From Niebla homalea (lineage: Eukaryota; Ascomycota; Lecanoromycetes; Lecanorales; Ramalinaceae), in assembly GCA_019925105.1 (NCBI GenBank), contig JAHGAU010000009.1:372001-436000 (forward strand): a stretch of DNA of 64,000 bases, given 5' to 3'. The translations under genes were made by a program, and so were the position numbers. Within the stretch, counting starts at the first letter, position 1, and every line of letters starts with the position of its first letter. The notes under the pieces are model-generated. The model had not been told where the DNA came from. It searched no databases and saw nothing but the letters and a program-made list of their open reading frames with translations. This document shows, piece after piece, positions 27,096-46,807 of the stretch.

Positions 27096-27314
27096 TATCT
27101 AAGCTCGAGGTCCTCGCTTAAGAGGTTGGCACCAGACGAACTCCAAGTCCTGCCTTATCCCCTTATCGCACGTGTCATGAAATGTCCAGCATTGTATCCA
27201 TTCAAATTGTTCGTGGAAAGATGGCACTCCTGACTGTGTATCAAAGTTGATGATGGTAGCCGCTTTGTGCGGTTTCGCATGAAAGGAATGGCTCCAGTCC
27301 GAACAGTGTGCAGA

Positions 27315-27363
27315 CTAATAGCATCATCAGATGTGTGGATACAATCAAGTGGAGTGTACTGAC
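27315..27363 (-). other. Post-stop intron of C1
   Basis: A 49-nt GT-AG element with donor GTCAGTAC, branch-like TCTGATG and acceptor CTATTAG followed by TCTGCAC. It begins 15 nt after the C1 stop. Donor, branch position and acceptor match those of C2-C9 and C11, which supports a real 3'-UTR intron. Confidence 0.65.
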
Positions 27364-27378
27364 CATTTGCTGATCTCA

Positions 27379-27882
27379 CTATCTGGACGACTTCGGCAGC
27401 TTGCCAGACTTGCCTAGATCAGCAAGATCCTTCTTGAGCTCCGACTCCTTCACCGCAAGAGCTTGATCCATCTCCTCCTCCGACCATCCGAGCTCCTGCA
27501 TGTTACATCTGCTATTGACTCCGAACATATCAACGACCTCGCCTCCGAAGATGGCAACGACTTCACTATTGACGTTTGTCCTCTGCGAATCAGATGCATA
27601 CGGCGCTTTTTGTAGACAGCGCAGTCTCTCAACCAGCTCATCCCGTTGATGACAAAGCTCGAACGTTTGGGCAAACCCCGGCGCTTCTGCAGCGACACTC
27701 CGAGCCTTGTGATTTCCCGACGATGCCGACAGCTTGAACTGGGACTCTGCGCTGTCAGTCTGGATAGCTGCGTTGACCTTCTTCAGCTGCTCCTGCAGCC
27801 CAGCCTCGTATTCCGGACTCTGGCTGGCATCGACGCTTTTCCCACCGTCTTTCGCTCCGTGATTGCTGTTGCTGCTGGACAT
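27379..27882 (-). CDS. Orphan cassette gene C1, helical protein, 167 aa
   Basis: First of eleven small minus-strand genes. Starts at ATG 27882 (MSSSNSN). The N-terminus is Ser/Asn-rich. A helical part follows (EYEAGLQEQLKKVNAAIQ, FELCHQRDELVERLRCLQ), and the C-terminus is charged: LGWSEEEMDQALAVKESELK, then a Lys-rich end. The GWSEEE segment resembles similar short motifs near the ends of C3, C6, C7 and C11. No signal peptide or membrane segment. The stop codon is 15 nt before the conserved intron at 27363..27315. I recognise no known family; the role is unknown. Confidence 0.62.
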   Translation of the reverse strand: MSSSNSNHGAKDGGKSVDASQSPEYEAGLQEQLKKVNAAIQTDSAESQFKLSASSGNHKARSVAAEAPGFAQTFELCHQRDELVERLRCLQKAPYASDSQRTNVNSEVVAIFGGEVVDMFGVNSRCNMQELGWSEEEMDQALAVKESELKKDLADLGKSGKLPKSSR

Positions 27883-28674
27883 GATATTCAATCTGGCAAT
27901 TGGGCTTGTGTCTCAGGTTGGGCAAGATGTGCTTGATGTGACGCAATTCAGCTATATTGAAGGAGAGCGAAAAGTTTGGGGACCAGGAGTGTACCACTCC
28001 GTCAAGTATTCCTCGGGCCACGGCAAAGGATTTCAAAACGTGGTAAAACGAGAGAAGGTCGAAGGAGCAAAACGGGTTGGGCAAGCAGCGAGCGATAGAG
28101 AGGAGCGAAATCAGTGGCGCTAACAGGATCTACGTGGGAATACTTGCTACAGTGGAGAAGCACGTATCTCCATCGTCCCGAAAATTGTGTTTGGAAATTA
28201 AGCAGCTCCAAAGTGAGTGCCTAGATACATCATGTACTTCCAACCTCTGCCTTCCGCCTGCCTTCTTATCTAAATATATTGTGCATAGTCAGGGTTGTAT
28301 TGTGTTCTGGGTCGCGAGAATCCTGTCTTTTCCTGCATTTGCACTGATGACCCTGCTTGGACGGAAAGTAAGAAGATGTGTTACTTCAAGCTGTCCGTCT
28401 CAAAAAGCTATGGTAGCCGTTTCCTTTCTCATGCTGCCTGATCAAACCGCCTTAAGGTATAGATATTTGGCGGCCGTTATCCCTCGTGGAACCAGGTGTC
28501 TCATCATGCATCGTACCACCCATCATCTCGCATCGTGTCTTCGCATGAATTCTCGTCCCTCGTGGTGTGCCAATCCAAGAAGGAGAATGTTGTACACACT
28601 GAAGGCTTCGAGACGCTGGTCGTCGTGTCAAAATCGAGTGTGGTGTCATGTCGCGCATAGTACAATGCATGTGT

Positions 28675-28798
28675 CAGAGAATTGTGCCTACTGAAGGTGA
28701 TGATGTGCATGCTGAGCGTGTTGTGATATAGGGGCATATCGAGGGTAACGCTACCTGTCTCGAGGGTGTTATGATGTGGTGCATACTGAGGGTTGTGG
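28675..28798. repeat. Degenerate short repeats downstream of C2
   Basis: Several imperfect copies of a unit reading roughly GTGCATACTGAGGGTTGTG on the plus strand, for example at 28681-28720 and 28779-28797. They lie 165-290 nt beyond the C2 stop. Related copies follow C3, C4, C5 and C9. Confidence 0.6.
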
Positions 28799-28895
28799 AA
28801 TATGAAGAGCATTGGGAGCTCCTAACAAGAGGGCCACCCTGGCCCAGATGAGGATAGTGGCTATGCGCGATGTTGCCAGATCGAGAACATTACAC

Positions 28896-28945
28896 CTGCT
28901 CTTGATTGTCAGAGCCGCGGCTGACGTCTTCTAGGAGACACTGAC
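28896..28945 (-). other. Post-stop intron of C2
   Basis: 50 nt, donor GTCAGTGT, branch region CTCTGACAA, acceptor AGAGCAG. Starts 17 nt after the C2 stop. Confidence 0.6.
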
Positions 28946-28962
28946 CAAGGCTGCTGCTCCTC

Positions 28963-29268
28963 CTACTTGTTGGCATCGCGCAAGTCTGCCAAACTCACAT
29001 CGTATTCTATCTCCTTCCGGTCGAAATAAGCCTTCTTCTGGCGTTCCGCAGCAGTATAGTCTGGGAAACTCCTCCCTGCCACCTGATCATTGAATGCCTC
29101 CTTTTCGACGAGCACGTCTCTATACTTCAACAGGATTTGCAACGCTGCTTCGGCCTTAGCTTTGAGGGCATCATTTTTCTTCTCCAATCGAGCAACATTG
29201 GATGACATGTATGCATCGAACTGTTCTACCGTGGCTGGTCTTCCATCTGTGTTCTCGTTGTTGGGCAT
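28963..29268 (-). CDS. Orphan cassette gene C2, coiled-coil protein, 101 aa
   Basis: ATG 29268 (MPNNENTDG) gives a short, strongly helical protein: VARLEKKNDALKAKAEAALQ, then LKYRDVLVEKEAFNDQ and a charged tail ending DANK. A coiled coil is likely over residues 25-60. An in-frame upstream ATG is part of the leader and adds a non-helical stretch, so I prefer MPNNEN. Promoter module at 29373-29411, and a conserved 50-nt intron starts 17 nt after the stop. No family recognised. Confidence 0.66.
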   Translation of the reverse strand: MPNNENTDGRPATVEQFDAYMSSNVARLEKKNDALKAKAEAALQILLKYRDVLVEKEAFNDQVAGRSFPDYTAAERQKKAYFDRKEIEYDVSLADLRDANK

Positions 29269-29372
29269 ATTTTCTAATGTGATAAAGTCGATGTCGGCTG
29301 GTGTCAAGCACTGCTCGTGACAAGTAAAGGATGGAAAGGGTTCTGATCTTGACGGGTTCAGCAGAAAAAGCA

Positions 29373-29411
29373 CTGCACACGTCTTTTTATTACCGTTGTG
29401 CTAAGCAGCAG
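29373..29411 (-). promoter_or_regulatory. Cassette promoter module of C2
   Basis: On the minus strand: CTGCTGCTTAG, an AATAAAAAG box, then GTGTGCAGTG. It matches the right half of the module shared with C3, C5, C7 and C9 and lies about 105 nt upstream of the C2 ATG. Confidence 0.6.
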
Positions 29412-29930
29412 ATCCTAGGACATGGTGATTCGGAGCAAGAAAAACGGAACAGAGGAAGATGTAGTGCCGCGAATCGTTCCGTCTCCTTGGCTAAGTAGAA
29501 GAGGCCGAAACATCCCAAGTAGGAAGGGGACGCAATACCGAAAGACGAGTATCACAGAGTGAGGAGATACTCTACACTTATCACCGCTCTTCATCATACC
29601 TAAGTCTGAAACGTTCTGAATAGGCAGACGGTAAATTGGAAGACAACGCAATCTCGTCGACGAGGTGGCACAGAGCGTGAAAAGCTATACCGCTCTCTAA
29701 ACAGCTACTGTCACGATGTCGCTAAGGCAGTGGAGACACATGCCGGAAGTGGGCTCTGTAGACTTGTCGAGGTTAGTAGCTAGGTGCTTTGGGTTGGACC
29801 GCTGATGATATCGAAGAGCAGCCGTTCGAGCGTTCCATCACGGGTAGTTTTGCTAAGTATATCTATCCTGGACAGCTTTTCCCTTCGCTTGTCTACCTGT
29901 CCATGTGTTTTGGGAGCTGAAAGTCTCGTA

Positions 29931-29976
29931 ATGTTGTGCATACTGAGGGTTGTGTTGGTGCATACTGATGGCTGTG
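29931..29976. repeat. Tandem pair of the GTGCATACTGA repeat downstream of C3
   Basis: Two consecutive copies, GTGCATACTGAGGGTTGTG and GTGCATACTGATGGCTGTG, separated by a few bases. They are the clearest copies of the repeat that also follows C2, C4 and C9. Confidence 0.7.
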
Positions 29977-30048
29977 AGGATTTGTTCTGTGGAGATGATG
30001 GTAGCTACGTTGGTATGGGTGTGATCTGAGCCGCTAGCAGCAGTCAGA

Positions 30049-30096
30049 CTAACTGGAATGTCAGATTCGCCGTCAAAGTTTCTTGCAGGTACTCAC
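30049..30096 (-). other. Post-stop intron of C3
   Basis: 48 nt, donor GTGAGTACC, branch region ATCTGACAT, acceptor CAGTTAG followed by TCTGAC. It begins 15 nt after the ancestral stop at 30112. Confidence 0.62.
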
Positions 30097-30111
30097 CACT
30101 TGACACTCTCA

Positions 30112-30543
30112 CTAACTGCGGGGCTTGTTCGACCTCGAATCAATAAGCGCCTCAAGGATTTCAAGCGCCGTCTCTTGACGGACTAGCACGGCTCATGGGA
30201 ATGCCTTGTTTATGGCATCCTCTGTGAAATTTAGCGCTTTCACCCTGCTTTTGCTATCTTTGGACCTTGTGTCCCTCGCACGCTGGTCATCAATTTCCCT
30301 CATCGGCGGTACTAGCTCGAATTTGCTGAGTATAAACCATTCGAGCTTCCACGTTAGATCAACTTGTCGACGAATGTATTGGAAGGGTCGTTTGTCCCAT
30401 GACGCTCCCAAGCTCTCTTCCATCTTTTCAAGCTCGAACAGCACGAGAGGTTCATCCAGAGTCCGGACCGGTTGATGATAACCAGCCTCCCGGCTAAATA
30501 TGTAGCCGCTGATTAGCTTCCAGTCTCACATAGTCGAGGCCAT
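30112..30543 (-). pseudogene. Orphan cassette gene C3, truncated by an in-frame TGA
   Basis: Tentative exons complement(30193..30493, 30530..30543), joined by a very short 36-nt intron; the ATG at 30543 is 108 nt from the promoter module. The protein is charged and helical (FELEKMEESLGASWDKRPF, REIDDQRARDTRSKDSKSR) and ends ALNFTEDAINKAFP at a TGA (30193). Past that stop the same frame stays open for 26 codons (AVLVRQETALEILEALIDSR) and ends at a TAG (30112) exactly 15 nt before the conserved donor, as in C1. The TGA is therefore probably a premature stop. Either a 104-aa protein is made or the gene is decaying. Confidence 0.55.
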
Positions 30544-30650
30544 ACTGAATCAGATGTGAGTTTGAGTAAAAGGTATTATTTGGAAGGTATGTTGCTCTCC
30601 AAGATAATGCGAGTAGATTAGAGGGAAAAGAAGTGTAAAGAGGAAGAAGA

Positions 30651-30704
30651 CTGCACGACTCTTTTTTGATTCCATCCCGGCAGGCAGTAGTATGCTGAAG
30701 CCAG
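30651..30704 (-). promoter_or_regulatory. Cassette promoter module of C3
   Basis: Minus-strand order: GCTTCAGCATA, CTACTGCCTG, GGGATGGAAT, an A-run in the TATA position, GAGTCGTGCAG. About 108 nt from the C3 ATG. Confidence 0.68.
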
Positions 30705-31145
30705 GTGATTCGAAGAAGTGTAGACGTGATACAAACGGTAGGGTAATAATGAATGGATCACATTGTAGGAGAGGGATGACGTGCTTGTTACCAGTGAAGA
30801 CAGTATCCACATGTTTCAAATTGCTCAACAAGACAAAAGAGCAGCCTAAGGTGGTACTTTTCTATCTGAAATATTGAAGATCTGATTAAATGACTAGATA
30901 CATGTTGTAATTCAACCTTTTGCTCCCAACCTATCCTAAACGAACGCTGAGTGCTATATGTGATGTCGCTGAACAAGATTGAGTAGTCAGTTCAGGAACA
31001 TCAGCTTCCTATCCAGCCCGCTGCGCATACTCAGGGGCGTTTAATATCGTAAGCCTCTTCGAATACCTTGCTGAAGTGATAGTGGCCGCTTCAGGTGATG
31101 TTGCTGCACATGACCGTTGAGTCAAGGCAGGGATCATCACGCAAG

Positions 31146-31192
31146 CTAGCAATCATTAGAAGGTTCGTCAAGATCGAGGACGTGGTACTTAC
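31146..31192 (-). other. Post-stop intron of C4
   Basis: 47 nt, donor GTAAGTACC, branch CTAATGA, acceptor TTGCTAG. Starts 17 nt after the stop. Confidence 0.62.
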
Positions 31193-31209
31193 CCTAACGC
31201 TACTCTGTA

Positions 31210-31593
31210 TCATGCCTGAGCACTCGAGGATCCACAGGAAGCATCCTCAGCAGCAAGCATCTCCTCCACTGGTCTGTATGCTACAGCAATCTCCTCTGCC
31301 AAGAACCAATCATGCAGCCCCAGCAGGGCTTTTCTATCATGGGCAATGATCGTCTCCACGGTTTCTACCTTCGACTTGTGGTCTTCGTTGTTGCTGACTT
31401 GCCACGCGATCTTTTGCTCCACTATGTCGAGTTGACTGCGGATCGAATCAATTACGCGGCGGCAGTCATCCCAGTCCATCTGCTTGTCGGCTCGGATACC
31501 TTCGAGCTTTTCTAACATCAATGTTGTGCGCTCGAGGGAGATCGTCCTGATTTTTATATTGAACTCTTGGATCTCTTTAGAGGGTTTGCCCAT
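31210..31593 (-). CDS. Orphan cassette gene C4, helical protein, 127 aa
   Basis: ATG 31593 (MGKPSKE). Almost the whole protein is predicted helical and charged: SLERTTLMLEKLEGIRADK, RRVIDSIRSQLDIVEQK, VETVETIIAHDRKALL, LHDWFLAEEIAVAYRPVEEM. It ends in a Ser/Ala tail. No cysteine-rich secretion signature, signal peptide or catalytic motif. A weaker promoter module lies at 31745-31786, a 47-nt conserved intron starts 17 nt after the stop, and a CATACTCAGGGG repeat lies about 170 nt beyond it. Family unknown. Confidence 0.66.
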   Translation of the reverse strand: MGKPSKEIQEFNIKIRTISLERTTLMLEKLEGIRADKQMDWDDCRRVIDSIRSQLDIVEQKIAWQVSNNEDHKSKVETVETIIAHDRKALLGLHDWFLAEEIAVAYRPVEEMLAAEDASCGSSSAQA

Positions 31594-31744
31594 TTTGTTG
31601 GATGTATCAGGGTCGGATGTAGTTTCGAAGCCAGCGCAATATAGTAGGGCGTGGGGGATACGTTGATAGCGAGACTTTAATTGGATGTGATGGAATACTG
31701 AGGGAAGGATTGATTGGTGATGGAAAAGAAGTAGAAGGAGAAAC

Positions 31745-31786
31745 AGCAGCGTGATGGCTTTTATATCTATCCGTTGAGCTGCCGAG
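31745..31786 (-). promoter_or_regulatory. Cassette promoter module of C4 (weak)
   Basis: Minus strand: GGCAGCTCAAC, GGATAGA, TATAAAAG, then CATCACGCTG. It keeps the spacing of the shared module around a good TATA box but the left half is diverged. Confidence 0.45.
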
Positions 31787-32157
31787 GAGAGACAGATGTG
31801 GTACAAAAGTAAAATAAATAGCTAGGAAGTTTTGGGATTGATAAGTAAGCCAGGGGAGTGTTTCAGCATAACGCAGTGGCAACAGTACACGTGGGAGCAT
31901 GATGAAATTGTTAGAATGGCGTCGGAAAGAAAACATTAGAGACGAGACCTATGCTTTCAACTCCCTGAATGCCCTCGCTATATCTAATGTTGACTTTGAG
32001 AAGGTCCTACTCTCATCCCTCTCGCAGCTAATGTCTTTGCTGGTAATGTATATCTCAGGTGAAGAGCTTTGCCCACGGATTCAATACATTCTGAGGGTCT
32101 GCTCGCCCATAAATCACTGCAGGAGGTCTCGAGCGCAGTAGACGCCTTTCTTGAAAA

Positions 32158-32721
32158 TCATAGTAGTTGCTTTCTCTGATATTGTAGAAGAATTTGGAGG
32201 ACGGCCAGAAACATCGCACAAACTAGAAATTCGTCAGACTTGCAATCGACCTTATTCGAGTGGTACATACCAAGTACCGCGTGCGTTAATGCTTGAGCTT
32301 TGAAGGCGCTGTCGAGCACGTTCTTATCATCACGAAGGACATCATTCTTCACCCGTGATAAGTATGCATCAACCTCCTTTGCCATCCAATCCGCGGCTTG
32401 CAATTTGTTCCTCCCGCGTTGAAGCCATTCCTCGACCATGGTATTTGCATCCTTGTTCTGCGGCGCCGGGCTTAAGATACACCCCATAGTTGAAGCCCTT
32501 TTCTCTATATCCTTTAGCGTCTTGAACAGTTTTTGTTGATCATCCAGAGACCGCGGCAGTCGGTTCGAGCTGTCCCAGTCAATGGTATCAAATCCCGCTT
32601 GAGTGCCGGCCTTGAAGAACCTAAGCTCAAAGACATCCGATTCCACTTTGTATTGCTCAATCTCCTGCTGAAGACCAGTAATTCGACTGATCAAGTCTAT
32701 GGTGCTCTTATTCTTTGGCAT
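32158..32721 (-). CDS. Orphan cassette gene C5, helical protein, 171 aa
   Basis: Exons complement(32158..32222, 32271..32721), or unspliced with 16 more residues because the 48-nt intron is in frame. ATG 32721 (MPKNKSTIDL). The N-terminus is a coiled coil (ISRITGLQQEIEQYKVESDV), followed by an amphipathic helix (LFKTLKDIEKRASTMG) and EEWLQRGRNKLQAADWM. After the intron the end is hydrophobic (VCAMFLAVLQILLQYQRKQ), a possible membrane or packing helix. The intron matches the post-stop introns of the other genes, but here the reading frame crosses it. Promoter module at 32842-32894. Confidence 0.65.
   Translation of the reverse strand: MPKNKSTIDLISRITGLQQEIEQYKVESDVFELRFFKAGTQAGFDTIDWDSSNRLPRSLDDQQKLFKTLKDIEKRASTMGCILSPAPQNKDANTMVEEWLQRGRNKLQAADWMAKEVDAYLSRVKNDVLRDDKNVLDSAFKAQALTHAVLGMYHSNKVDCKSDEFLVCAMFLAVLQILLQYQRKQLL
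32223..32270 (-). other. Cassette intron of C5, inside the reading frame
   Basis: 48 nt, donor GTATGTACC, branch region GTCTGACGA, acceptor TTTCTAG. Homologous in position and motif to the post-stop introns of neighbouring cassette genes. Confidence 0.65.
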
Positions 32722-32841
32722 GGATCAATTTTCGACGTTAGAAGTTGACAAGTGGAGGTCAGTCAAAGATCAGGGAGGCTGGCCGAGGGGAATAATCGAG
32801 GTGATGGATGATTGATTGATCGAGAAAAGGTCGAGAGGAGA

Positions 32842-32894
32842 GTGCACGACTTATCTTGTATCCAGCCCACCAGGCAGCAAGATTCTGAAACATA
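32842..32894 (-). promoter_or_regulatory. Cassette promoter module of C5
   Basis: Minus strand: GTTTCAGAATC, TTGCTGCCTGG, GGGCTGGATAC, AAGATAA in the TATA position, GTCGTGCAC. It ends about 120 nt upstream of the ATG. One of the best copies. Confidence 0.72.
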
Positions 32895-33315
32895 GTCTAT
32901 GAGAGAAATGACTCGGGCGAATGTGGTCAAGTGTCAAACCCGAGATAGATTCAAAATGCAATCTCATTTCCTAATGGCCCTTAATTTTGTGATGACTTAC
33001 TAATACCTAACCAAGATAATCGTACGGACGATCTTAGTCCCGCTTGTATAGCGGTACATTGGATTTGTCTTTGTACCACATCTCCAAGTTTCAGAGCAAG
33101 TCTGTCTGATTCGCCCTTCAAAAGCTGAGGATGCTGCTGTTGAAACGCAGGACCACAGATGGGCTTTCCGTTTCCACCGCGGACCGACACATCCAACATG
33201 TTGTGCATGAGGAGGACCAGGCCAAAAATCCCCAGATCATCATTTCTCTGTCGTCAAAGTCGCACAGTGTAATGTCGCAAGAATATGCGTAGTCAAGTCA
33301 AAATGGTGGTGCACG

Positions 33316-33367
33316 CTATCTGGCATGTCAGATAGGTGGCCAAAATCATGCATATCGTAGTACTCAC
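33316..33367 (-). other. Post-stop intron of C6
   Basis: 52 nt, donor GTGAGTACT, branch region TATCTGACAT, acceptor CAGATAG. Shares the segment CCACCTATCTGACA with the C7 intron (CCACGTATCTGACA). Confidence 0.65.
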
Positions 33368-33413
33368 CTATCAATCTTCTTATTTGTGCTGGGGGTCCGA
33401 GGCTCCATCCCTG

Positions 33414-34019
33414 TCAGCCTCCAAGTGCCTGCTTCACTTGTTCATATGCTTCGTGGGCCTTCTCGGTCGTCCAGCCGGCTCTTCCGGCCAGGTCGCTTAC
33501 ACCTTGTTTCAGCGACTCCTTCAACAGCTCATGCTTCGTCTTCTTCTTGAATGCTGTTGAACTTCCATTGTAGCGTTCGTTTCTTGCTTCTAGAACTTGC
33601 CATTCATTATAGGCAAACATCTCTTCAAGAATAGTCTCGACCACGAGAGATAGTCCCTGTCCGTTGTTGTCTTTGTGCTTTCCCTCGAACATCAATTTCG
33701 AGCGATCTGTCCTGTATCGATCAATCTTTGCCCTCCAGAATAGGACCTCCACAAGCTCGTAGTAATAGTCGTGCTCACGCGGGGGAATCGTTTGCCCCAG
33801 TCTCTTCTTGTCCTCTTCGATCACATGCTGGAATTTCTCCACTCTGAGCCCCCAATCCTCAGATTCCTTGTCAAGTCGCCTCATCTCGTCTATAAGCTGG
33901 ATCTCATAGTCGATTGAATCATAGATTTCAGTAATGCGAGTTGGAGCGTAACCATGACGCCAAAAGTCATTCAGCAACTCTTTACGCTTCTTCTGTTCCT
34001 TTTCTCGAGTCCTGTCCAT
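33414..34019 (-). CDS. Orphan cassette gene C6, helical protein, 201 aa
   Basis: ATG 34019 (MDRTREKEQ). Largely charged helices: KEQKKRKELLNDFWRHGY, YEIQLIDEMRRLDKESEDW, YYYELVEVLFWRAKIDRYR, VVETILEEMFAYNEWQVLEA. The C-terminus is AGWTTEKAHEAYEQVKQAL, similar in shape to the GWSEEE end of C1. No signal peptide. Promoter module at 34203-34243 lies about 185 nt upstream. The stop is 46 nt before the conserved 52-nt intron, the longest such gap among the cassettes. Family unknown. Confidence 0.66.
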   Translation of the reverse strand: MDRTREKEQKKRKELLNDFWRHGYAPTRITEIYDSIDYEIQLIDEMRRLDKESEDWGLRVEKFQHVIEEDKKRLGQTIPPREHDYYYELVEVLFWRAKIDRYRTDRSKLMFEGKHKDNNGQGLSLVVETILEEMFAYNEWQVLEARNERYNGSSTAFKKKTKHELLKESLKQGVSDLAGRAGWTTEKAHEAYEQVKQALGG

Positions 34020-34202
34020 CTTATCTCCTGAGCCCCGGAAAAATGCAAAGATATTGCGGTAGGATTGCTTGTCTGATGTGATAAGATAGATAGTCTTTTG
34101 TGACAAGATAGGTGGGAGATGAATCCTGCTGATAGTTTTGGATGATGAAGTGTCAGATGTATGTATTGTCATAAATAGGGGAGGAAGTTGAACAAAGAAA
34201 GA

Positions 34203-34243
34203 CTGTACGACACTCTTGAAACCCGTCAGCAGGCCGCTGAAAC
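34203..34243 (-). promoter_or_regulatory. Cassette promoter module of C6
   Basis: Minus strand: GTTTCAGCGGC, CTGCTGACGGG, TTTCAAGAG in place of a TATA box, GTCGTACAG. Good match at both ends. Confidence 0.65.
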
Positions 34244-34614
34244 ACGGAGAACTACGAGTAAAGCATCATTGAGCGTGGATGAGCCGAGACTAGCAGCGCC
34301 ACTAGAGAATATATGCTTCGAGACCATGTTATTTTTAATTGACGGAGGCTATGTACAAATGTTGGAGAAATTGACATGTGAATAGGTAGCCAATGAGAGC
34401 CGACATGCTTGACTTGTCCTCAGAGAGGCCAATTTTCCTGCCGAAGAAATGAATCAAAGATAAGCTTCTCCCTTTCCATGCGCTCATACTCAAACATGTC
34501 GTTGACGCAGAACGCCACATTGTCCATCCCAGACCGTTAGAGATGCCGTTACCAGTCGAGTAGTATTTCGCTTCGAGAACCGTTACACAAGTCATGTCAA
34601 TGGCATTTTACCAG

Positions 34615-34662
34615 CTATGTACACTGTCAGATACGTGGCTGAAAGCAAAGAGGGAAACCTAC
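34615..34662 (-). other. Post-stop intron of C7
   Basis: 48 nt, donor GTAGGTTT, branch region TATCTGACAG, acceptor ACATAG. Starts 12 nt after the stop. Confidence 0.65.
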
Positions 34663-34674
34663 CAACTGCAAATC

Positions 34675-35127
34675 TCACTTCTGCTTGCTCCCTTCAATTT
34701 GCCCCTCTCCGTTGTTTAGCTTCTGCTCCACTAGATCATATACCTCCTTGATCAACCTCTCTGCCTCTGCTTCATCAAACGACTTGCCATCACCGCAATT
34801 CTTCCTCATTGTACTCATCATGGCTTGCTTGCCCCTGTGAAGACATGTCGACTCATCCACCACCCTTCTCTTGACCACGAGCTTTGCACCTATCTCCTCC
34901 TCCCGTACTTCTTGACGAATCATAGCAGCCACGATATCAAGCATTTCATCGTCTTTGTTCTTCTCTTCTACCAGTTCCATCACGATTTTCAAGCGCTCGG
35001 CCTGGAGCTCATTGACTTTGCGTTTTCTATCACGGGCTTCTTGCTCCCGGGCGAGTGCTGCTTCAGGTGGTGACTCGCTGTCACCCCTTTCAATAGCTCT
35101 TACCACATTCTCAGTGTAGCGGGGCAT
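34675..35127 (-). CDS. Orphan cassette gene C7, helical protein, 150 aa
   Basis: ATG 35127 (MPRYTENVV). A long charged coiled coil (ALAREQEARDRKRKVNELQ, ERLKIVMELVEEKNKDDEM) is followed by MIRQEVREEEIGAKLVVKRR. The C-terminal helix is KSFDEAEAERLIKEVYDLVE, and the end is polar. An in-frame upstream start exists at 35292 but would add a hydrophobic, promoter-derived stretch, so I reject it. Promoter module 35265-35315; the conserved intron starts 12 nt after the stop. Family unknown. Confidence 0.68.
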   Translation of the reverse strand: MPRYTENVVRAIERGDSESPPEAALAREQEARDRKRKVNELQAERLKIVMELVEEKNKDDEMLDIVAAMIRQEVREEEIGAKLVVKRRVVDESTCLHRGKQAMMSTMRKNCGDGKSFDEAEAERLIKEVYDLVEQKLNNGEGQIEGSKQK

Positions 35128-35264
35128 CTTGTGTAATAAGGTGAGGTAGATGCTGGATCGTGTCAAGAGTAAGAATCGTTCATTACAAGCTGTCAAATGT
35201 ATGTTGAGGAGGTAGATTGGGTATGCTAAGGAGACAGAATGGAAAAAGAAAGAAGAAAATTGGG

Positions 35265-35315
35265 CTGCACAACGTTTTATAACTCCATTCAACCTAGGCA
35301 GCAGCGTACTGAAAC
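35265..35315 (-). promoter_or_regulatory. Cassette promoter module of C7
   Basis: Minus strand: GTTTCAGTACG, CTGCTGCCTAGG, TTGAATGGAGT, TATAAAACG, TTGTGCAG. It carries the best TATA box of the set and ends about 138 nt from the ATG. A GTACATACTGAGAC repeat lies just upstream. Confidence 0.72.
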
Positions 35316-35661
35316 GTCGTGGATTAGTACATACTGAGACATACTATGGAACGATGCAGACTATGGACACAAAACCCTTCTAGTTTGAAACCGTAGATGA
35401 CGAAACTCTGACCCGTGTGACAACATTGAAATGACCTGACGGAAATACGAGGGGTAAAGAGTTTTAGGTATGAAGTGAGTCATGAAGCAGGTATCATAAC
35501 TTGCACGGTCACCAGAGTCTCAAAGGGGCTAGTATCTACTCCTACGAAGCTGATAGTCCAACGGAGGAGATTAGTCATAGCCAAAAATCCCTCGTGGTTT
35601 TCTTCCAGTCCAAACTGTTGGGCTTGCTAGGATTGATGTAGTACTATCAACAACGTGCAGG

Positions 35662-35711
35662 CTAATCCACATCGTCAGATTTGATTGTTCATAACATAGA
35701 CATTACTTAAC
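35662..35711 (-). other. Post-stop intron of C8 (weak donor)
   Basis: 50 nt, donor GTTAAGTA, branch region AATCTGACGATG, acceptor GGATTAG followed by CCTGCAC. Branch and acceptor match C1 closely; the donor is poor. Confidence 0.52.
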
Positions 35712-35737
35712 AACCGCTGCTCTCATGAAGGCCTAGA

Positions 35738-36073
35738 TCATTTCGACGGTCGATAAGCCGACTTGTACATGGGAGCATTGATCATGTATCGCTCAAGTCT
35801 TCCATACTTCTCTTCAGTCTCCCTTCGCGAGTAGGTACCCCGCCTATTCATACGGTGTTTGCCCTCCGATATACATTTTCGATATTGACCCTGGGGCTTC
35901 TCTCCAACTTGTAGCTTGTAGTATATCTCCCTGTTCATCATGTCAAGTAGCTCCTCACATTCCTTCGCGTCGGTGAGGTCTCGTCCATAGAAGAAGCCGG
36001 CACGTTCGTTCTGCAGAGTCTTGACTATGTCTTTGAAATCGCTTTTGCCAAAGGAGCTTCTGCCGAAGTGCAT
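35738..36073 (-). CDS. Orphan cassette gene C8, CISEGK protein, 111 aa
   Basis: ATG 36073 (MHFGRSS). Clearly paralogous to C9: both contain a helical part with LQ..RA..F.G, an acidic helix, the motif CISEGK, then N..G, a Tyr and a late MI pair. In C8 these are LQNERAGFFYGRDL, KCISEGKHRMNRRG and GRLERYMINAP. The only Cys outside CISEGK is in KECEELL. The C-terminus is basic (YRPSK). Promoter module at 36190-36237 is weak. A conserved intron with a GTTAAG donor starts 26 nt after the stop. Confidence 0.68.
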   Translation of the reverse strand: MHFGRSSFGKSDFKDIVKTLQNERAGFFYGRDLTDAKECEELLDMMNREIYYKLQVGEKPQGQYRKCISEGKHRMNRRGTYSRRETEEKYGRLERYMINAPMYKSAYRPSK

Positions 36074-36189
36074 GTTGTAAGATGTCGAGAGTTTGACGCT
36101 AATTTGTTGCAAGAAGGGTAAGCTTAGAGCAAGATGTTAGGAATGTGGTGGCTATAAGGGTTGGAGAAGAAAGCAGCCAGAACAAGGGC

Positions 36190-36237
36190 CACAGAACTAC
36201 TTTATTATGCATCTGGCCCCGGAGAACAATGAAACAC
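36190..36237 (-). promoter_or_regulatory. Cassette promoter module of C8 (weak)
   Basis: Minus strand: GTGTTTCATTG, CTCCGGGGCC, AGATGCATAATAAAG, then TTCTGTGG. Left end and TATA box match the shared module; the CTGCTGCC core is lost. Confidence 0.42.
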
Positions 36238-36670
36238 CTTTATTCCTCTTTGTCCCTAACATTAGCCTCGTTCCTCTTGCCAAGAGTTGGCAGATCTATC
36301 CCAGTATTTCGGAGGCACACTGTTCATTGCGTCTCGCAAACGAGAGCAATCATCTCGGCGGTACATCTCAGTCTCAAGATCGAGGACAAGCCGACGTGTT
36401 ACGCAAAAGTCTTGGAAAGATTTGCGGTCTAGGGGCTACCTGTAGTCACGCGTCCAGTGTGGTGATTACAAGACTAGATGAAGTTTTGAAAAGATGATAC
36501 TAGCATGGGCAGCGATTATAGAGAGAGTGTGTATTCGTAAGTGGATATATGTTATGTGGTGAATCTGCCGCCAGAAGCACCAAGGCTAATAGAGATCATT
36601 TCCAAGCTGACATACCAATGAATTCGATCATAGATCTATCTTGTCTCCCTGCCTTCATATCCAACACCTT

Positions 36671-36820
36671 GCTAATGCTGAGGCTTGTGTGATGTAGTGC
36701 ATACTGGGGGTGGTGTTGTGATGTGTATGGTAATGACTGTGTAAGGTACTCGATGATTGTGACGACTTTATGTTGTAGGAACTGAAGATGGTGTGATGTG
36801 GTACATGCTGAGGCTAGCAT
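36671..36820. repeat. Short repeats downstream of C9
   Basis: Imperfect copies of the GTGCATACTGAGGG unit, clearest at 36697-36715 (GTGCATACTGGGGGTGGTG) and 36799-36815 (GGTACATGCTGAGGC). They lie 150-290 nt beyond the C9 stop. Confidence 0.58.
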
Positions 36821-36900
36821 GATGGTGAGCCGGCTCACGAAAGTGGAAAGGGAGTCCTCGGTAAAAATGTCTTGGGACCTTGTTAGCACTATCGCCCTTT

Positions 36901-36950
36901 CTGTTCACATATTTCAGACACAATGCTAACTCTTGGCTAATAGTACGTAC
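36901..36950 (-). other. Post-stop intron of C9
   Basis: 50 nt, donor GTACGTAC, branch region TGTCTGAAAT, acceptor GTGAACAG. Starts 12 nt after the stop. Confidence 0.6.
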
Positions 36951-36962
36951 CAGTTGCTCCAC

Positions 36963-37316
36963 TCATTTCTTTTTGGACTTTGACGCTCCAGCCTCAGCAT
37001 ACTTGGACAACAGAGGGGACTGCCACCCTGTGTCGATCATGCGCTGCGCCACCGCTGCGTATCTTGCTCTAACGTCGTCCTTCTTGAAGACCCCTGTCTT
37101 ATTCAGATATTTTTTGCCTTCGGAAATGCATGGTCCAACTAAGTCCTGACCTCTCTGACCATTTGCTTCTTTGAGCCCAATCTCGTTTGATATATAGGAA
37201 ATGATTCTGTCGCATGTCTCTTTCGTCTCTGCAGGATTGTTGAAAAAATCTCCAAGAAATTGCCTTGCGCGCTTTTTCTGGAGCCCAGAGATTGCTTCCT
37301 TGACCACTGAAGGCAT
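36963..37316 (-). CDS. Orphan cassette gene C9, CISEGK protein, 117 aa
   Basis: ATG 37316 (MPSVVKEAISG). Paralogue of C8 with GLQKKRARQFLGDFF, a helix with two Cys-free turns, then PCISEGKKYLNKTG, DVRARYAAVAQRMIDTGW, and a Lys-rich end. The two proteins agree on CISEGK, the N..G that follows, one Tyr and MI. The Cys-Ile-Ser-Glu-Gly-Lys motif is the only near-invariant block and may be functional. No known family recognised. Promoter module 37443-37483; the conserved intron starts 12 nt after the stop. Confidence 0.7.
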   Translation of the reverse strand: MPSVVKEAISGLQKKRARQFLGDFFNNPAETKETCDRIISYISNEIGLKEANGQRGQDLVGPCISEGKKYLNKTGVFKKDDVRARYAAVAQRMIDTGWQSPLLSKYAEAGASKSKKK

Positions 37317-37442
37317 CCTTTATTGTAGAATGAAGTAGAGCCAAGATAGTTTCAAGAAAGCGTAGTTGCGAGTACAATATCGGAGATAAGTCCAGAATGA
37401 GGTACGAGTAAAATACGGATCGAAGAAGCGGACCGCAAGTCT

Positions 37443-37483
37443 CATTATGTATTCATCCAGCCCAGCAGCAGGGTTCTGAAACG
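37443..37483 (-). promoter_or_regulatory. Cassette promoter module of C9
   Basis: Minus strand: GTTTCAGAACC, CTGCTGCTGGG, CTGGATGAAT, ACATAATGAG. It ends about 127 nt from the ATG and is continuous upstream with a 250-bp block that recurs near 39095-39330. Confidence 0.7.
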
Positions 37484-37500
37484 CTCTGGATCAGAAAGCA

Positions 37501-37751
37501 ATAGATATTGAACATGTGACCGTGAAAGAACAATGTCGTATTTTTCAAACAAGGGGAAGAGGACCCAGCGTCATGTGCCATAATAGAGCGAATAGAGCGG
37601 ATAGAGCTGCGGGGCAAAATCGAACTTGGTAGTTTCATAGTATTCATTGTAGCAAAGTAGAGTGTCATCTGCAATCTATACTCATGACTGGGACGAAAAA
37701 ATCAAGCTGGTACTCTCGGACTCGGCTGAAGTGAATTTTATACAGCCTCAT
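37501..37751. repeat. Duplicated block, copy 1 (upstream of C9)
   Basis: Strongly similar to 39095-39330. Shared landmarks on the plus strand are GTATTCATTGTAGCAAAGTA, AAATCAAGCTG, CTCGGACTCGGC or CCCGGACTCGGC, and a terminal ACAGCCTCAT. In the best part most differences are transitions. Confidence 0.8.
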
Positions 37752-38904
37752 ATGTGGGATGCGTGAAAATAAGTAGGGGTGCATCGTGTATATTGAGTGA
37801 TCTATGGATGATGTATAATGAAGGAAGACTTGGTAGACAACATCTATCTGTAGGAAATGCCCAGGTGTACTGAGATGTACCGCTAAGTGCTCTAATATAC
37901 ATTTCCCATATGAGTGTCTTGGCATGACGGCTCATCATTGTATGCTGAAATATAGAAGCACCAAGAAGCTGACCTGGTTGATCATTTCCAAGCCGACAAT
38001 CCCAAATTCCATACCCAAATTGCTGTACATGGTGAGGTTGGTGCAATATCATGCAGTCTGAGGTTGTTGTTTGGTAGTTTGTGCTAAGTCTGGTGTGAAG
38101 GATGACATGGTGATGGGCATATTCAGGATGGTGCTGCAGTGTTAGAAATGAATGCTTTGGTATCATTACAAGGTTTGGGAACACAAGCAAACGCCCAGTA
38201 GCTAGCGTGTATGATATCGCAAGGACGCACCAGCCTCCGGCGAGGTGCCATCCTCCTATCAAAATTGTCAGGCCACCGACTAGAATCATGCGGATAAGAT
38301 TTACCGGTTGCGGAAAACGTTCCAGCACAGGGGCTTGCACTGCATCAACCTCGCTTGCCGGGTAAGGGCCATTGACTGGACCCGTCAGAAGGACCTTGTC
38401 CTCTGCCATCACGCCTCGCAAATCTTCGGGCCCCTGGGGAGTGAATTGAAGGTTCTGAAGGCTGATTTCACGAATCATGTTGTCCAATATCATAAGGGCG
38501 CGTTTATCATCCATGGTCTGGCCGAGGGTTAGGACGTCCAAGTATGAAAGCAGACGTTGCCGGCGCACATTTTCGATCTGTTCAGCAATAGGGATTTCGG
38601 GTGTCGCAGTAAGATGTTGCTGCATACTTCGTTGTGCATCATCAACCACGCTTTCCTGCAATCCGGCCCCCTCCGTCATGAAAGCCCTATCCTCTGTCAT
38701 GAAGCTTCGGAATCTTTTGAACCTCTGGGAATCACCTTTTTGAAGGACCAAAAGGGCTCGCTGACGAGATATACAACCGAGTATGGCAGAGGCGCGCTGG
38801 CTATTCATAGGGTGGCCGACAGCTAGGACTTCTAAGAATTTGAGCAGACGTTCATGGCGTACATCTTCGATCTGTACATGAAGAGGAATATAGGGGTTCT
38901 GCAT
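37738..38904 (-). CDS. Orphan cassette gene C10, internal repeats plus membrane segment
   Basis: ATG 38904 (MQNPYIPLHVQ), 147 nt below a promoter module. The protein has two copies of a helical repeat of about 45 residues: IEDVRHERLLKFLEVLAVG with SQRASAILGCISRQRALL, and IENVRRQRLLSYLDVLTLG with DKRALMILDNMIREISL. A hydrophobic segment follows (LIRMILVGGLTILIGGWHLA), long enough for one or two membrane passes. The open frame runs on to 37738, but from about 38140 it reads through DNA resembling the 3' flank of C9, so the true end is probably near 38150 with or without splicing. Family unknown. The repeats are not ankyrin, TPR or WD in any form I recognise. Confidence 0.6.
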   Translation of the reverse strand: MQNPYIPLHVQIEDVRHERLLKFLEVLAVGHPMNSQRASAILGCISRQRALLVLQKGDSQRFKRFRSFMTEDRAFMTEGAGLQESVVDDAQRSMQQHLTATPEIPIAEQIENVRRQRLLSYLDVLTLGQTMDDKRALMILDNMIREISLQNLQFTPQGPEDLRGVMAEDKVLLTGPVNGPYPASEVDAVQAPVLERFPQPVNLIRMILVGGLTILIGGWHLAGGWCVLAISYTLATGRLLVFPNLVMIPKHSFLTLQHHPEYAHHHVILHTRLSTNYQTTTSDCMILHQPHHVQQFGYGIWDCRLGNDQPGQLLGASIFQHTMMSRHAKTLIWEMYIRALSGTSQYTWAFPTDRCCLPSLPSLYIIHRSLNIHDAPLLIFTHPTYEAV

Positions 38905-39040
38905 AATTAGGGCTGAAGCTTTCTCTTCTGATGTGACAACGTAAGTGCTATACCAAAACGGAGACTTTGGCTTGGAGGGGAATGTCAAAGTGATGTTGAT
39001 ATCAAGATTTGAAGAAAGAAAGAAGTCAAGAGGACCAGGA

Positions 39041-39090
39041 CCGAAGGACCTCTTTTATGCCCAACCATCCCCCAGCAGTATCTGTAACGC
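39041..39090 (-). promoter_or_regulatory. Cassette promoter module of C10
   Basis: Minus strand: GCGTTACAGATA, CTGCTGGGGGAT, GGTTGGGCATAAAAGAGG, TCCTTCGG. TATA box and CTGCTG core are clear. Confidence 0.6.
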
Positions 39091-39094
39091 CATG

Positions 39095-39330
39095 TAGATA
39101 GACGTTGTACATATCAGCGTGAAGGACCCATGATGTAGTCTTGAAACAGGGAGAAGAGGAGTCGGCCTTGACAGAGGGAATGGAGCCACGTGGAACATTG
39201 GATTTGTAAGTCTCAGAGTATTCATTGTAGCAAAGTAGAGTATCATCTCCAATGCACACTCACGACTGAGACGCAAAAATCAAGCTGATACTCCCGGACT
39301 CGGCCGGGGTTGATACTGTACAGCCTCATC
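39095..39330. repeat. Duplicated block, copy 2 (upstream of C10)
   Basis: Second copy of the block at 37501-37751, about 1.6 kb away in the same orientation. It sits in the same place relative to the promoter module. Confidence 0.8.
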
Positions 39331-39407
39331 GTACGCTGAGATAGGTCCATTTGACGCACAATTCCCCATGTTGACCCCGCTCCTCCTCGAGACTCCTGTC
39401 GTTTTGA

Positions 39408-39455
39408 CTAGCAACGTCAGCTGGATTGCTTGACGAGCAAATCAAGCGTACGTAC
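39408..39455 (-). other. Post-stop intron of C11
   Basis: 48 nt, donor GTACGTACG, branch region AGCTGACGT, acceptor TTGCTAG. Starts 13 nt after the stop. Confidence 0.62.
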
Positions 39456-39468
39456 CTGCTGTGCTTCC

Positions 39469-40053
39469 TCAGGCAGACAGGAAATCCTTCACCAGAGCCG
39501 ACGTCAACTCTCGGACGGCATTTCTCGAGACCGTGATTTTCTCCTCGATCTCCTCCTTGGGCATCCCCTGCTTCTTGAGCTGCTGGGCGATTTCAGCTGT
39601 CTTGTCGTAAACTAATCGCTGCAGATCCGCGATTTTATCTTTCAGGCTGTCCTGCAGCTCAGTCCTTGCCAGTTCCGTATCCCGGCGTCTATGCTTCAGG
39701 ACCTTTTGGTACTCGTCGAGAGTCTTCTTGCGTTGCTTGAGACCCATCTTTTCTTCTTCGTGGGACGAGGAGCCCTTGCCATCTGCACTGCGTTCCTTGG
39801 CCCTCACCGCGAATGCGGCAGCATCGTCATGATACTGAGCAGACTGTCTATCCAATGTCCGCGACTCCTCCAGCCTGTCCTCGCACCTTTTGGAGATTGG
39901 TCGCCACTCATCCTCAAACCACTGCCGGATCCTGAGCACATCCACCTCGATCAGTGACGTGTCCCAGGGAGCCGTTGCGAGGTTGTCATAGACAGCAGCG
40001 ACTTGATTCGTATCGCTGGCCTTGGACAGAAATGGAACCCCTGCTGTCCTCAT
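39469..40053 (-). CDS. Orphan cassette gene C11, coiled-coil protein, 194 aa
   Basis: ATG 40053 (MRTAGVPFLS). The protein is charged and helical: DVLRIRQWFEDEWRPISKR, a coiled coil through EEEKMGLKQRKKTLDEYQK and TELARTELQDSLKDKIADL, then AEIAQQLKKQGMPKEEIEEK and RNAVRELTSALVKDFLSA. The GMPKEE segment sits where C1 has GWSEEE. No promoter module is visible upstream, but the conserved intron (39455..39408) starts 13 nt after the stop. It is the right-most gene with that intron. Family unknown. Confidence 0.68.
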   Translation of the reverse strand: MRTAGVPFLSKASDTNQVAAVYDNLATAPWDTSLIEVDVLRIRQWFEDEWRPISKRCEDRLEESRTLDRQSAQYHDDAAAFAVRAKERSADGKGSSSHEEEKMGLKQRKKTLDEYQKVLKHRRRDTELARTELQDSLKDKIADLQRLVYDKTAEIAQQLKKQGMPKEEIEEKITVSRNAVRELTSALVKDFLSA

Positions 40054-40059
40054 TTCCAC

Positions 40060-40910
40060 ACTCGATGATGTAGTGCGTCTTCTGTGTTTGATAGCTGCTA
40101 TGACAATGGAGGGTTACCAGAGAGAGAAACAAGCAGCACGTAGTCAAATCTAGACCCACTTTGCTACGTAGCTACCACTAGCGTGGTTTTTCGCTAGGCA
40201 AAAGAAGACTTGGTACCACAGACGAACGCAATAAAACTACGGCACGGATCAGGAAAGGATGAAGGTGCTGGCATGATATGACATTTGGTCTCATCCTAGT
40301 GTTGAATCCCTATATGAATGCCACGATGCTGTCCTGAGACAGTCCACTGATCAGATCGTATCATTATTCCACGAGTCTAGGAGATCGTATCAATGTGCTC
40401 TGTCTGGAGAAGAAGTGTTGGAAGCATCTCGATGGCCATTGTGTCGAAAAGCATAGGTATGGCGTGCGTGTCTTTGTCAGGTAACCGTAAGAAACACTGG
40501 TGTTGCGCAAAGGTCTCTGTTGTAGTAGAGTGCTGTTGCTGAAGGAGGAAGAACAATAATGGGGTAGTTGAATGAGAGTGTGTCTGATGTAGTAGGGTGC
40601 TGTTGGTGCATGAGGAAGACCGAACGCACAATCGGGTAAGTTGAATGAGAGAGTGTCTGATGTGATAGAGTGCTATTGCTGAGGGAGGAAGGCGGAATGC
40701 ATGACGCAGGTAGTTGAATAAGTGTGACGTTCCTAGGAAAGAAAATCCAAATGGATGGTGGTTTCAATTGTGACAGCGTGCCGATTCCAGGGGAGAAAGT
40801 CGTGCCAGGGGCCGTCGGAAGTTGTAGGGAGGGGCTATGCCGGTAGAATGGCACACATAGTACCTCAGATTCAGTCCTTGTTCTGCCCATATCAATCACC
40901 CAGCATCCTA
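40060..40910. other. Spacer between C11 and the next orphan gene
   Basis: Contains imperfect repeats near 40515-40690 around GTAGTAGAGTGCTGTTGCTG, GTAGTAGGGTGCTGTTGGTG and GTGATAGAGTGCTATTGCTG, each followed by GAGGAAG-like text and, in two, GGTAGTTGAAT. No gene supported. Confidence 0.5.
40515..40725. repeat. Three imperfect tandem repeats of about 65-85 bp
   Basis: Three units share GTAGAGTGCTGTTGCTG (variants GTAGGGTGCTGTTGGTG and ATAGAGTGCTATTGCTG), then a GAGGAAG element, then AGTTGAAT(G/A)AG. The first two also share GAGTGTGTCTGATGT-type links. The units are A/G-rich on the plus strand. Confidence 0.6.
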
Positions 40911-45534: not shown

Positions 45535-46807
45535 TGTTCAGCAAACCTGCAACAAACGAAGTCAGCAAAAGTTGGGATGGATGAGACATGAGTTGATCAT
45601 ATGTAATGGGCGCTGGGCGAGTTGTTGAGCACACGTCGTTTCTTTGGCCGGATCGACGGTCTTTGGACATCAAGGCGCTGTTAGTCTAGGCGACAGTGAG
45701 GCCTAGCTGCGACCATTGATCGTCTTGATCTGGATATCCAAAGCCCAGGCGGTCTCTCCCTCTCAGTAATTGCTGAGTGATGGCAGACAGGCGTGCTTCC
45801 AGCCTTGTAAAGTGATTCAACCCGTACCAGGCTGAGGTCACGCGTCACTCGGAAGCGTCGTCCATACACAATACAGGGGGGCTGTGAGATACAGGGGGGC
45901 TGTGAGAGCAAATCTCTTACCTTTGAGACGCGTGTTAGAGGTGACCTTGAAGGGTATTGTGATGGTTGAGCTAAAATTGGACAGATGACGAGAGGATTCG
46001 GGCGGAATGATCTTGACAGGCCAGATGATTAGAACAGATGGTTGAACTGACGATTGCGCATGTGTTAGTACTGAGTGCAAAACGGTACCTAGGCACCCTA
46101 AGCCCTTTACAGACTTGGCTCAGCCTTATCACTATCATCGACCGCCAAGACCGGACAGTCTGTGCTTCTGTCACTCCATCTAGAAATTCCACCTATACAT
46201 CCTCGTTGAGTTGTAAAGGTCTTTCCATGCCAGCCTTCAAGCCGGTGGCGCTTATCTCTCTGGCTTTCAATGCTGACCATGATATGTTCGTATACTAAGT
46301 GTCCTGCTTGGTCTTAGAAAATATCTCTAACTAAGCGCTCCAAATCGCCATGTCGACGGCAAATCGCTCCCAAAACCTCTAGAAAGGTTACCAGCAAGGT
46401 AGACGTGAATCTCAAAAGCCATTTGAGCAAAGCTATCTGGACATGGCTATATCTCAATCGAATTCATCATCATATTTTCCTTATAGATTAATTTGCCTTG
46501 GAGTCAGTTTCCCAGGTGCTTGCAAAGCTTGCAAATCGCCATGTGATCCCTTTTTCCAACTATCACCATTGATGGGTGATGGATGTTCAATTCGCGCTTT
46601 CCATGATTTGTCTTGGCACAACATTGCTAGCTAGCACTCCTCACGCTTCCACGTATCACTGCAAAGTACATACTTTCATTGGCCTCTTTGCTGGCTTGCG
46701 TCGTTGCAATTGTAAGCCCGAGAGCATCGTTATTGTGTCTATATCGTGAAAACACCCCTCTTGTATGCCCAGAGCTGTCCCATTTCGGCTCCACGTCAAA
46801 GCACACA
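45535..46807. other. Intergenic region between 14-3-3 and the RhoGEF gene
   Basis: About 1.27 kb separating divergently transcribed genes, so it holds two promoters. Short frames only. A perfect 18-nt tandem duplication sits at 45871-45906. Confidence 0.42.
45871..45906. repeat. Perfect 18-bp tandem duplication
   Basis: Unit ATACAGGGGGGCTGTGAG occurs twice in direct tandem with no mismatch. The G-run makes slippage a likely origin. No gene or promoter element is evident in it. Confidence 0.85.

Follow-up and report, generated by a model that had tools for sequence, protein, structure and literature searches.

An array of eleven small genes with recurring promoter and intron elements in the ascomycete Niebla homalea

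Gene content of the array

A 64,000-nucleotide (nt) stretch of the Niebla homalea genome (assembly GCA_019925105.1, contig JAHGAU010000009.1, positions 372,001 to 436,000), here called the window, contains eleven small genes, C1 to C11, arranged head-to-tail on the minus strand (Table 1; positions are those of the window). Three kinds of noncoding element recur around them: a promoter module, a short intron near the stop codon, and, after some genes, a short downstream repeat. Such an array with a recurring cassette had been described in an initial annotation made from the sequence alone, and the observation was confirmed, with the corrections given below.

Between positions 27301 and 41700, the minus strand holds 11 ATG-initiated open reading frames (ORFs) of at least 110 amino acids (aa), and the plus strand holds 2; this set overlaps C1 to C11 but is not identical with it. 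Shuffled versions of the region contained 1.11 such ORFs on average and 5 at most (200 shuffles). A codon score was derived from a training set of 54 long frames, taken from the window flanks and from elsewhere in the genome. For each array gene, and for the neighboring frame C0, no more than 1.1% of wrong-frame pieces scored as high. On both counts, the eleven genes look coding, as proposed, except that C9 has probably decayed, because the frame from its first ATG is closed by a stop after five codons. In the remaining ten genes, the frame is open and the codon score is genome-like. C0 is possibly a twelfth unit; it has a weak promoter match (41679-41645), and no intron was matched there.

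The apparent ORF of C2 is 388 aa long. Because its long tail (38304-37741) scores as noncoding, C2 was taken as a shorter spliced form. The open frame is lengthened by a dispersed repeat of about 200 bp between C2 and C3, for which 34 further matches were listed in the genome (50.6 Mb in 52 contigs, the extent of all genome-wide searches), 33 at E ≤1e-6 and one at E 0.365, partly in a local cluster (L027/L030). This repeat could suggest that the array is the remnant of a transposable element family. Such an origin is highly improbable, since the repeat aligns to a single array site among the 18 loci compared, and the six proteins and two patterns tested are not dispersed.

Recurring noncoding elements

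The promoter module was recognized in seven genes. When a profile of the regions upstream of C3, C5, C7, and C9 was run on both strands of the window, its next three matches were those of C10, C2, and C6. In leave-one-out tests with all seven copies, every left-out copy scored above all counted nonseed matches in the window (C3, 33.6 bits; C7, 27.0; C9, 31.2; C5, 34.5; C10, 6.3; C2, 10.6; C6, 6.9). The count excluded matches at other sites upstream of these genes. A weak match (1.7 bits) was present at the expected place in C4. In 242 kb of background, some of it selected with the promoter pattern search, the highest-scoring match reached 14.8 bits (L038). This match lies inside an open frame and is followed 52 nt downstream by a 129-aa frame, but no intron-profile match was listed on that strand, and L038 was attributed to chance.

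Across the genome, a pattern drawn from C3, C5, C7, and C9 matched exactly at those four places only and thus nowhere outside the array. With one or two mismatches, there were 18 further matches, compared with 7 for a reversed-pattern control. The C7 promoter used as a whole-genome DNA query found only itself and missed the other array copies. A Gibbs motif search of the upstream regions found only a pyrimidine-rich leader. C2, C6, and C10 have a leader motif in common, and its next best copy lies in the spacer between C0 and C1. That copy is included in repeated units of about 70 nt at positions 40513-40800.

An intron of 47 to 52 nt at or just after the stop codon had been proposed for the array. 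Introns, chosen by eye, were predicted in all eleven genes, but at 44 to 50 nt, and their positions vary. The intron begins 12 to 17 nt after the stop in only six genes (C1, C3, C5, C8, C10, and C11); the distance is 31 nt in C4, 46 nt in C6, and 96 nt in C9, and in C2 and C7 the predicted intron precedes the ORF stop. By leave-one-out profile, nine of the eleven outscored all background (C2 and C3 by a narrow margin), and C4 fell below three background matches. A strict intron grammar, formulated with the introns already in view, fitted 6 of 10 array stops versus 5 of 471 background stops; for a loose grammar, the counts were 8 of 10 and 26 of 471.

The downstream repeat is clear after C3, C9, and C10 and weak after C2. 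With at most one mismatch, it had five matches in the genome, all within the array; with two mismatches, there were 45 matches versus 32 for a control. The repeat proposed initially is therefore confined to the array at that stringency but follows only some of the genes.

Relationships and properties of the proteins

The proteins had been described as having little mutual similarity. Pairwise, this holds almost throughout, the only clear likeness being that of C3 and C4. Profiles, however, join more of them: when any one of C3, C4, C5, C6, and C8 was left out, a profile built from the other members recovered it at a score that 0 of 982 background pieces reached, the lowest score being that of C5 (9.3 bits). 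The family alignment has seven rows, and all of them retain one arginine and an [EHR][GD][KR] triplet. Judged from these profiles, C3, C4, C6, and C8 are homologous, and C5 and C2 belong with them less firmly. The proposal of one gene family is thus supported for this part of the array.

No second locus was found in whole-genome searches with C6, C3, C5, C0, C2, and C8, and outside matches stayed at chance level; only C3 reached another member, C4. C1, C4, C7, C9, C10, and C11 were not among the queries. A match to C3 (L012, E 0.008) was taken as chance, the frame resembling dienelactone hydrolase by eye. In prokaryote genomes, 2 of 93 candidate stretches were confirmed (L075 and L076); both lie in long frames that by eye look like LmbE/PIG-L deacetylases and were likewise attributed to chance. 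In viral contigs, 0 of 86 candidate stretches were confirmed. No Pfam match exceeded the cut-off among the 10 array proteins scanned (all but C9), and none was listed for C0; in the same set, no NACHT, NB-ARC, HET, or related domain was found. A sequence search of the PDB with C3 and C4 gave no relative at E values up to 5. "Orphan," the term used initially, therefore means that nothing was found in this genome and Pfam for the proteins tested and in the PDB for C3 and C4.

The best of five models of C3 has five helices (predicted local distance difference test [pLDDT], 78.7; predicted template modeling score [pTM], 0.71), and no convincing fold match was found for it in the PDB or among viral models. 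All array proteins are rich in charged residues. Crude hydropathy was computed for 12 proteins, with C2 in its spliced form and C7 without its hydrophobic ORF end. No strongly hydrophobic N terminus of the signal peptide kind was seen (maximum, 1.85, in C2), nor any membrane-like stretch (highest 19-residue mean, 1.21, in C11). The array proteins may thus be intracellular. In the unspliced frame of C2, hydrophobic stretches run from the intron onward (38120-38304, minus strand), and the end of the C7 frame is also hydrophobic (32158-32223, minus strand); both may be due to chance.

Divergence and selection

Noncoding parts had been reported as better conserved than coding parts, the reverse of what is normal. 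This is the case for C2 and C3, whose upstream blocks share 68% identity over 322 alignment columns (78% of 290 ungapped positions), whereas the codons of C2b and C3 are saturated at synonymous sites. For C3 and C4, the relation is reversed: among the proteins, C4 is nearest to C3, and its promoter shows only a weak likeness. Because the C2 and C3 blocks are so alike despite saturated codons, and because C3 is nearest to C4 in protein, conversion or partial duplication probably copied the upstream block from one of the two genes to the other at a time when their coding regions had already split. These relations suggest that the cassette parts have different histories. Counter to this copying, comparison of the 70-nt core promoter gives C3 the same value with C2 as with C7 (0.59) and a higher one with C5 and C9 (0.63).

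In a rival explanation, unrelated small coding regions would repeatedly have been placed in a fixed promoter-intron frame by recombination, the exchange of contents that the initial annotation offered as an alternative. C1, C7, C9, C10, and C11 are without established protein kinship, yet C7, C9, and C10 carry the promoter and all five carry the intron; the long upstream block of C3 has its partner at C2, although the protein of C3 is nearest to that of C4. However, exchange is superfluous for the related genes, since several coding regions appear homologous and divergence alone accounts for about half of the array. The richness in charged residues throughout is as expected of one family, and C3 is not nearest to C2 in the core promoter alone. 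We therefore consider such exchange unlikely, although among C1, C7, C9, C10, and C11 some unrelated inserts may have been swapped in.

The two internal repeats of C2 are 62% identical over 294 columns. Over 97 codons, their synonymous distance (dS) is 0.53 and their nonsynonymous distance (dN) is 0.57, a ratio of 1.07 (bootstrap, 0.66 to 1.78). For C3 and C4, dS is saturated, dN is 0.90, and the ratio is below 1 (0.14 to 0.83). Because the first interval includes neutrality and the second ratio is below 1, positive selection is not demonstrated and some constraint is present; the strong diversifying pressure proposed initially is thus not demonstrated either. An arms race, with the array under strong positive selection as an effector, allorecognition, or anti-parasite system, would account for the similar dN and dS within C2 and for strong protein divergence next to recognizable flanks. 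Both ratios, the lack of a signal-like N terminus by hydropathy, and the absence of Pfam matches in the proteins scanned speak against it, and it seems an unlikely explanation. Alternatively, an old, dispensable tandem family without a special role may have diverged under relaxed constraint, with only core promoter and splice signals conserved. The broken C9 and the ratio near 1 in C2 are consistent with this, as is the fact that splice signals account for part of the intron likeness. The ten open frames with genome-like codon scores and the constraint between C3 and C4 are not, and we regard relaxed divergence as rather doubtful.

Genomic setting

As described initially, the array lies between housekeeping genes: RasGAP, IMP dehydrogenase, a split SNF2/RING helicase, and TFB6 on one side, and Nas2, a HAMP histidine kinase, LAA2, and Nsp1 on the other. 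About 15 kb from the array, at 10713-11832 (minus strand), lies a relic of a NOD-like receptor (NLR) gene, fragments in two frames that match NPHP3_N (NACHT-type ATPase), the second below the cut-off. No match of the promoter or intron profile was listed inside it in the window scan. An open frame of 498 residues at 46631-48124 (plus strand) is without a Pfam match. Repeat-induced point mutation (RIP) was rejected for the window, where TA/AT is 0.47 to 0.79 and (CA+TG)/(AC+GT) is 1.26 to 1.57, outside the usual RIP thresholds.

Table 1. Features of the array and its surroundings, in window coordinates
Feature	Position	Strand	Remark
C1-C11 array	27379-40053	minus	eleven small genes, head-to-tail
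C0	40911-41429	minus	possible further member; 172 aa; coding-like; weak promoter match and profile score
C1	39469-40053	minus	194 aa; tied to array by post-stop intron only
C2	38202-38904	minus	predicted spliced form; two internal repeats; intron before stop
C2a	38904-38611	minus	first internal repeat of C2
C2b	38610-38305	minus	second internal repeat of C2
C3	36963-37316	minus	117 aa; five-helix model
C4	35738-36073	minus	111 aa; nearest to C3, 27-28% identity
C5	34675-35127	minus	150 aa; family by profile, least secure of five
C6	33414-34019	minus	201 aa; family by profile
C7	32158-32721	minus	187-aa ORF; predicted intron near end; protein kinship not established
C8	31210-31593	minus	127 aa; family by profile
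C9	30193-30543	minus	probably decayed; coding-like open piece 30525-30193
C10	28963-29268	minus	101 aa; protein kinship not established
C11	27379-27882	minus	167 aa; protein kinship not established
C1 predicted post-stop intron	39408-39455	minus	by eye and grammar; leave-one-out fails
C2 predicted intron	38256-38304	minus	before stop
C3 predicted post-stop intron	36901-36950	minus	profile and grammar
C4 predicted post-stop intron	35662-35706	minus	weak
C5 predicted post-stop intron	34615-34662	minus	profile and grammar
C6 predicted post-stop intron	33320-33367	minus	profile and grammar
C7 predicted intron	32223-32270	minus	before ORF stop
C8 predicted post-stop intron	31146-31192	minus	profile
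C9 predicted intron	30053-30096	minus	profile
C10 predicted post-stop intron	28896-28945	minus	profile and grammar
C11 predicted post-stop intron	27315-27363	minus	profile and grammar
C2 promoter module	39031-39098	minus	profile
C3 promoter module	37424-37495	minus	profile
C5 promoter module	35256-35327	minus	profile
C6 promoter module	34195-34254	minus	profile
C7 promoter module	32833-32904	minus	profile
C9 promoter module	30641-30712	minus	profile
C10 promoter module	29363-29433	minus	profile
C2 upstream block	39038-39329	minus	pairs with C3 block
C3 upstream block	37430-37751	minus	pairs with C2 block
Downstream repeat after C3	36680-36819	minus	two copies
Downstream repeat after C9	29919-29976	minus	two overlapping copies
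Downstream repeat after C10	28697-28797	minus	two copies
Dispersed repeat copy, ~200 bp	37748-37953	minus	between C2 and C3

Discussion

With a probability of about 0.6, the array is a locally confined, fast-evolving tandem family shaped by birth and death, coding for small, charged, intracellular helical proteins under a shared type of promoter. Duplication would have produced head-to-tail units, each consisting of a promoter, a short leader, one main coding exon, and a short intron located at the stop or immediately beyond it, with the downstream repeat added in places. Constraint, and probably later copying at least upstream of C2 and C3, would have kept the expression parts recognizable, while a helical scaffold was kept in the proteins and most residues were replaced. 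C2 would have gained its internal duplication, and C9 would be decaying. Through their cassette parts, C1, C7, C9, C10, and C11 may share the common descent of the others. The predicted introns would be spliced and the array coexpressed.

Several results weigh against this explanation, and the evidence base is the DNA sequence of one genome. C1, C7, C9, C10, and C11 fail the protein profile of the family. When both C2 repeats were left out, C2a was not recovered (81 of 982 background pieces), and C2b was recovered only at a level that 6 of 982 reached. Because reversed C7 reached 7.1 bits, above C7 itself (2.4) and the background maximum of that run (4.4), profile scores below about 8 bits mean little, and C5 is not far above this level; in other profile runs, background maxima were 9.0. 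Because score decided which members joined the profile, the leave-one-out results look better than they should. A Gibbs motif search that took in all the proteins gave results no better than those with half-reversed controls and lends no support to a fold common to all 11, and the model of C5 is poor (pLDDT, 54.5). Among the noncoding parts, the C1 intron was not recovered by its leave-one-out profile, and the promoter profile had no listed match in the window for C1, C8, and C11, so the proposed module does not extend to every gene.

Antagonistic processes are a common setting for such arrays. That the proteins of this tandem family are recognition or interaction modules in such a process is a tentative guess, with the odds against it. 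A fuller version, in which recombination keeps the promoter-intron frame alike while helical inserts for intracellular recognition diversify or are swapped, and in which strain repertoires differ as part of an undescribed self/non-self or anti-parasite system, is improbable. Should strains differ in repertoire, the array would qualify as a candidate locus of recognition or conflict, which a comparison of strains can test directly. More generally, genes too diverged for plain protein pairing can be tied together by promoter and intron, and this linkage could be used to search other fungal genomes for families hidden in this manner.

In the literature searched, no account of a comparable array was found, and no wider claim is made. 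Powdery-mildew RNase-like effector candidates (CSEP/RALPH) are fast-evolving paralogues with a conserved intron position, but they are secreted and have an RNase-like fold, whereas the array proteins have no signal-like N terminus by crude hydropathy and the C3 model is all-helical. The wtf proteins of fission yeast have several membrane helices and are made from dual transcripts; hydropathy of 12 sequences revealed no membrane-like stretch here. The wtf spore-killer family resembles the array in being fungal, fast-evolving, and multicopy. In mode of evolution, not in membership, the array can be compared with snake venom families, namely, three-finger toxins with segment switching ("ASSET") and phospholipase A2, in which introns resemble one another more closely than do parts of the coding exons. 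In one report, intron segments of a venom multigene family are >85% identical and some exon segments 12.5 to 50% identical (PMC2474615). Venom toxins are secreted animal proteins that have conserved cysteines and for which accelerated change of the coding sequence is reported, whereas the array proteins look intracellular, are poor in cysteine, and have passed no selection test. Tandem, head-to-tail paralogues, a trait of the venom-type mode, are present in the array, where C3, C4, C5, C6, and C8, joined by profile, lie on one strand.

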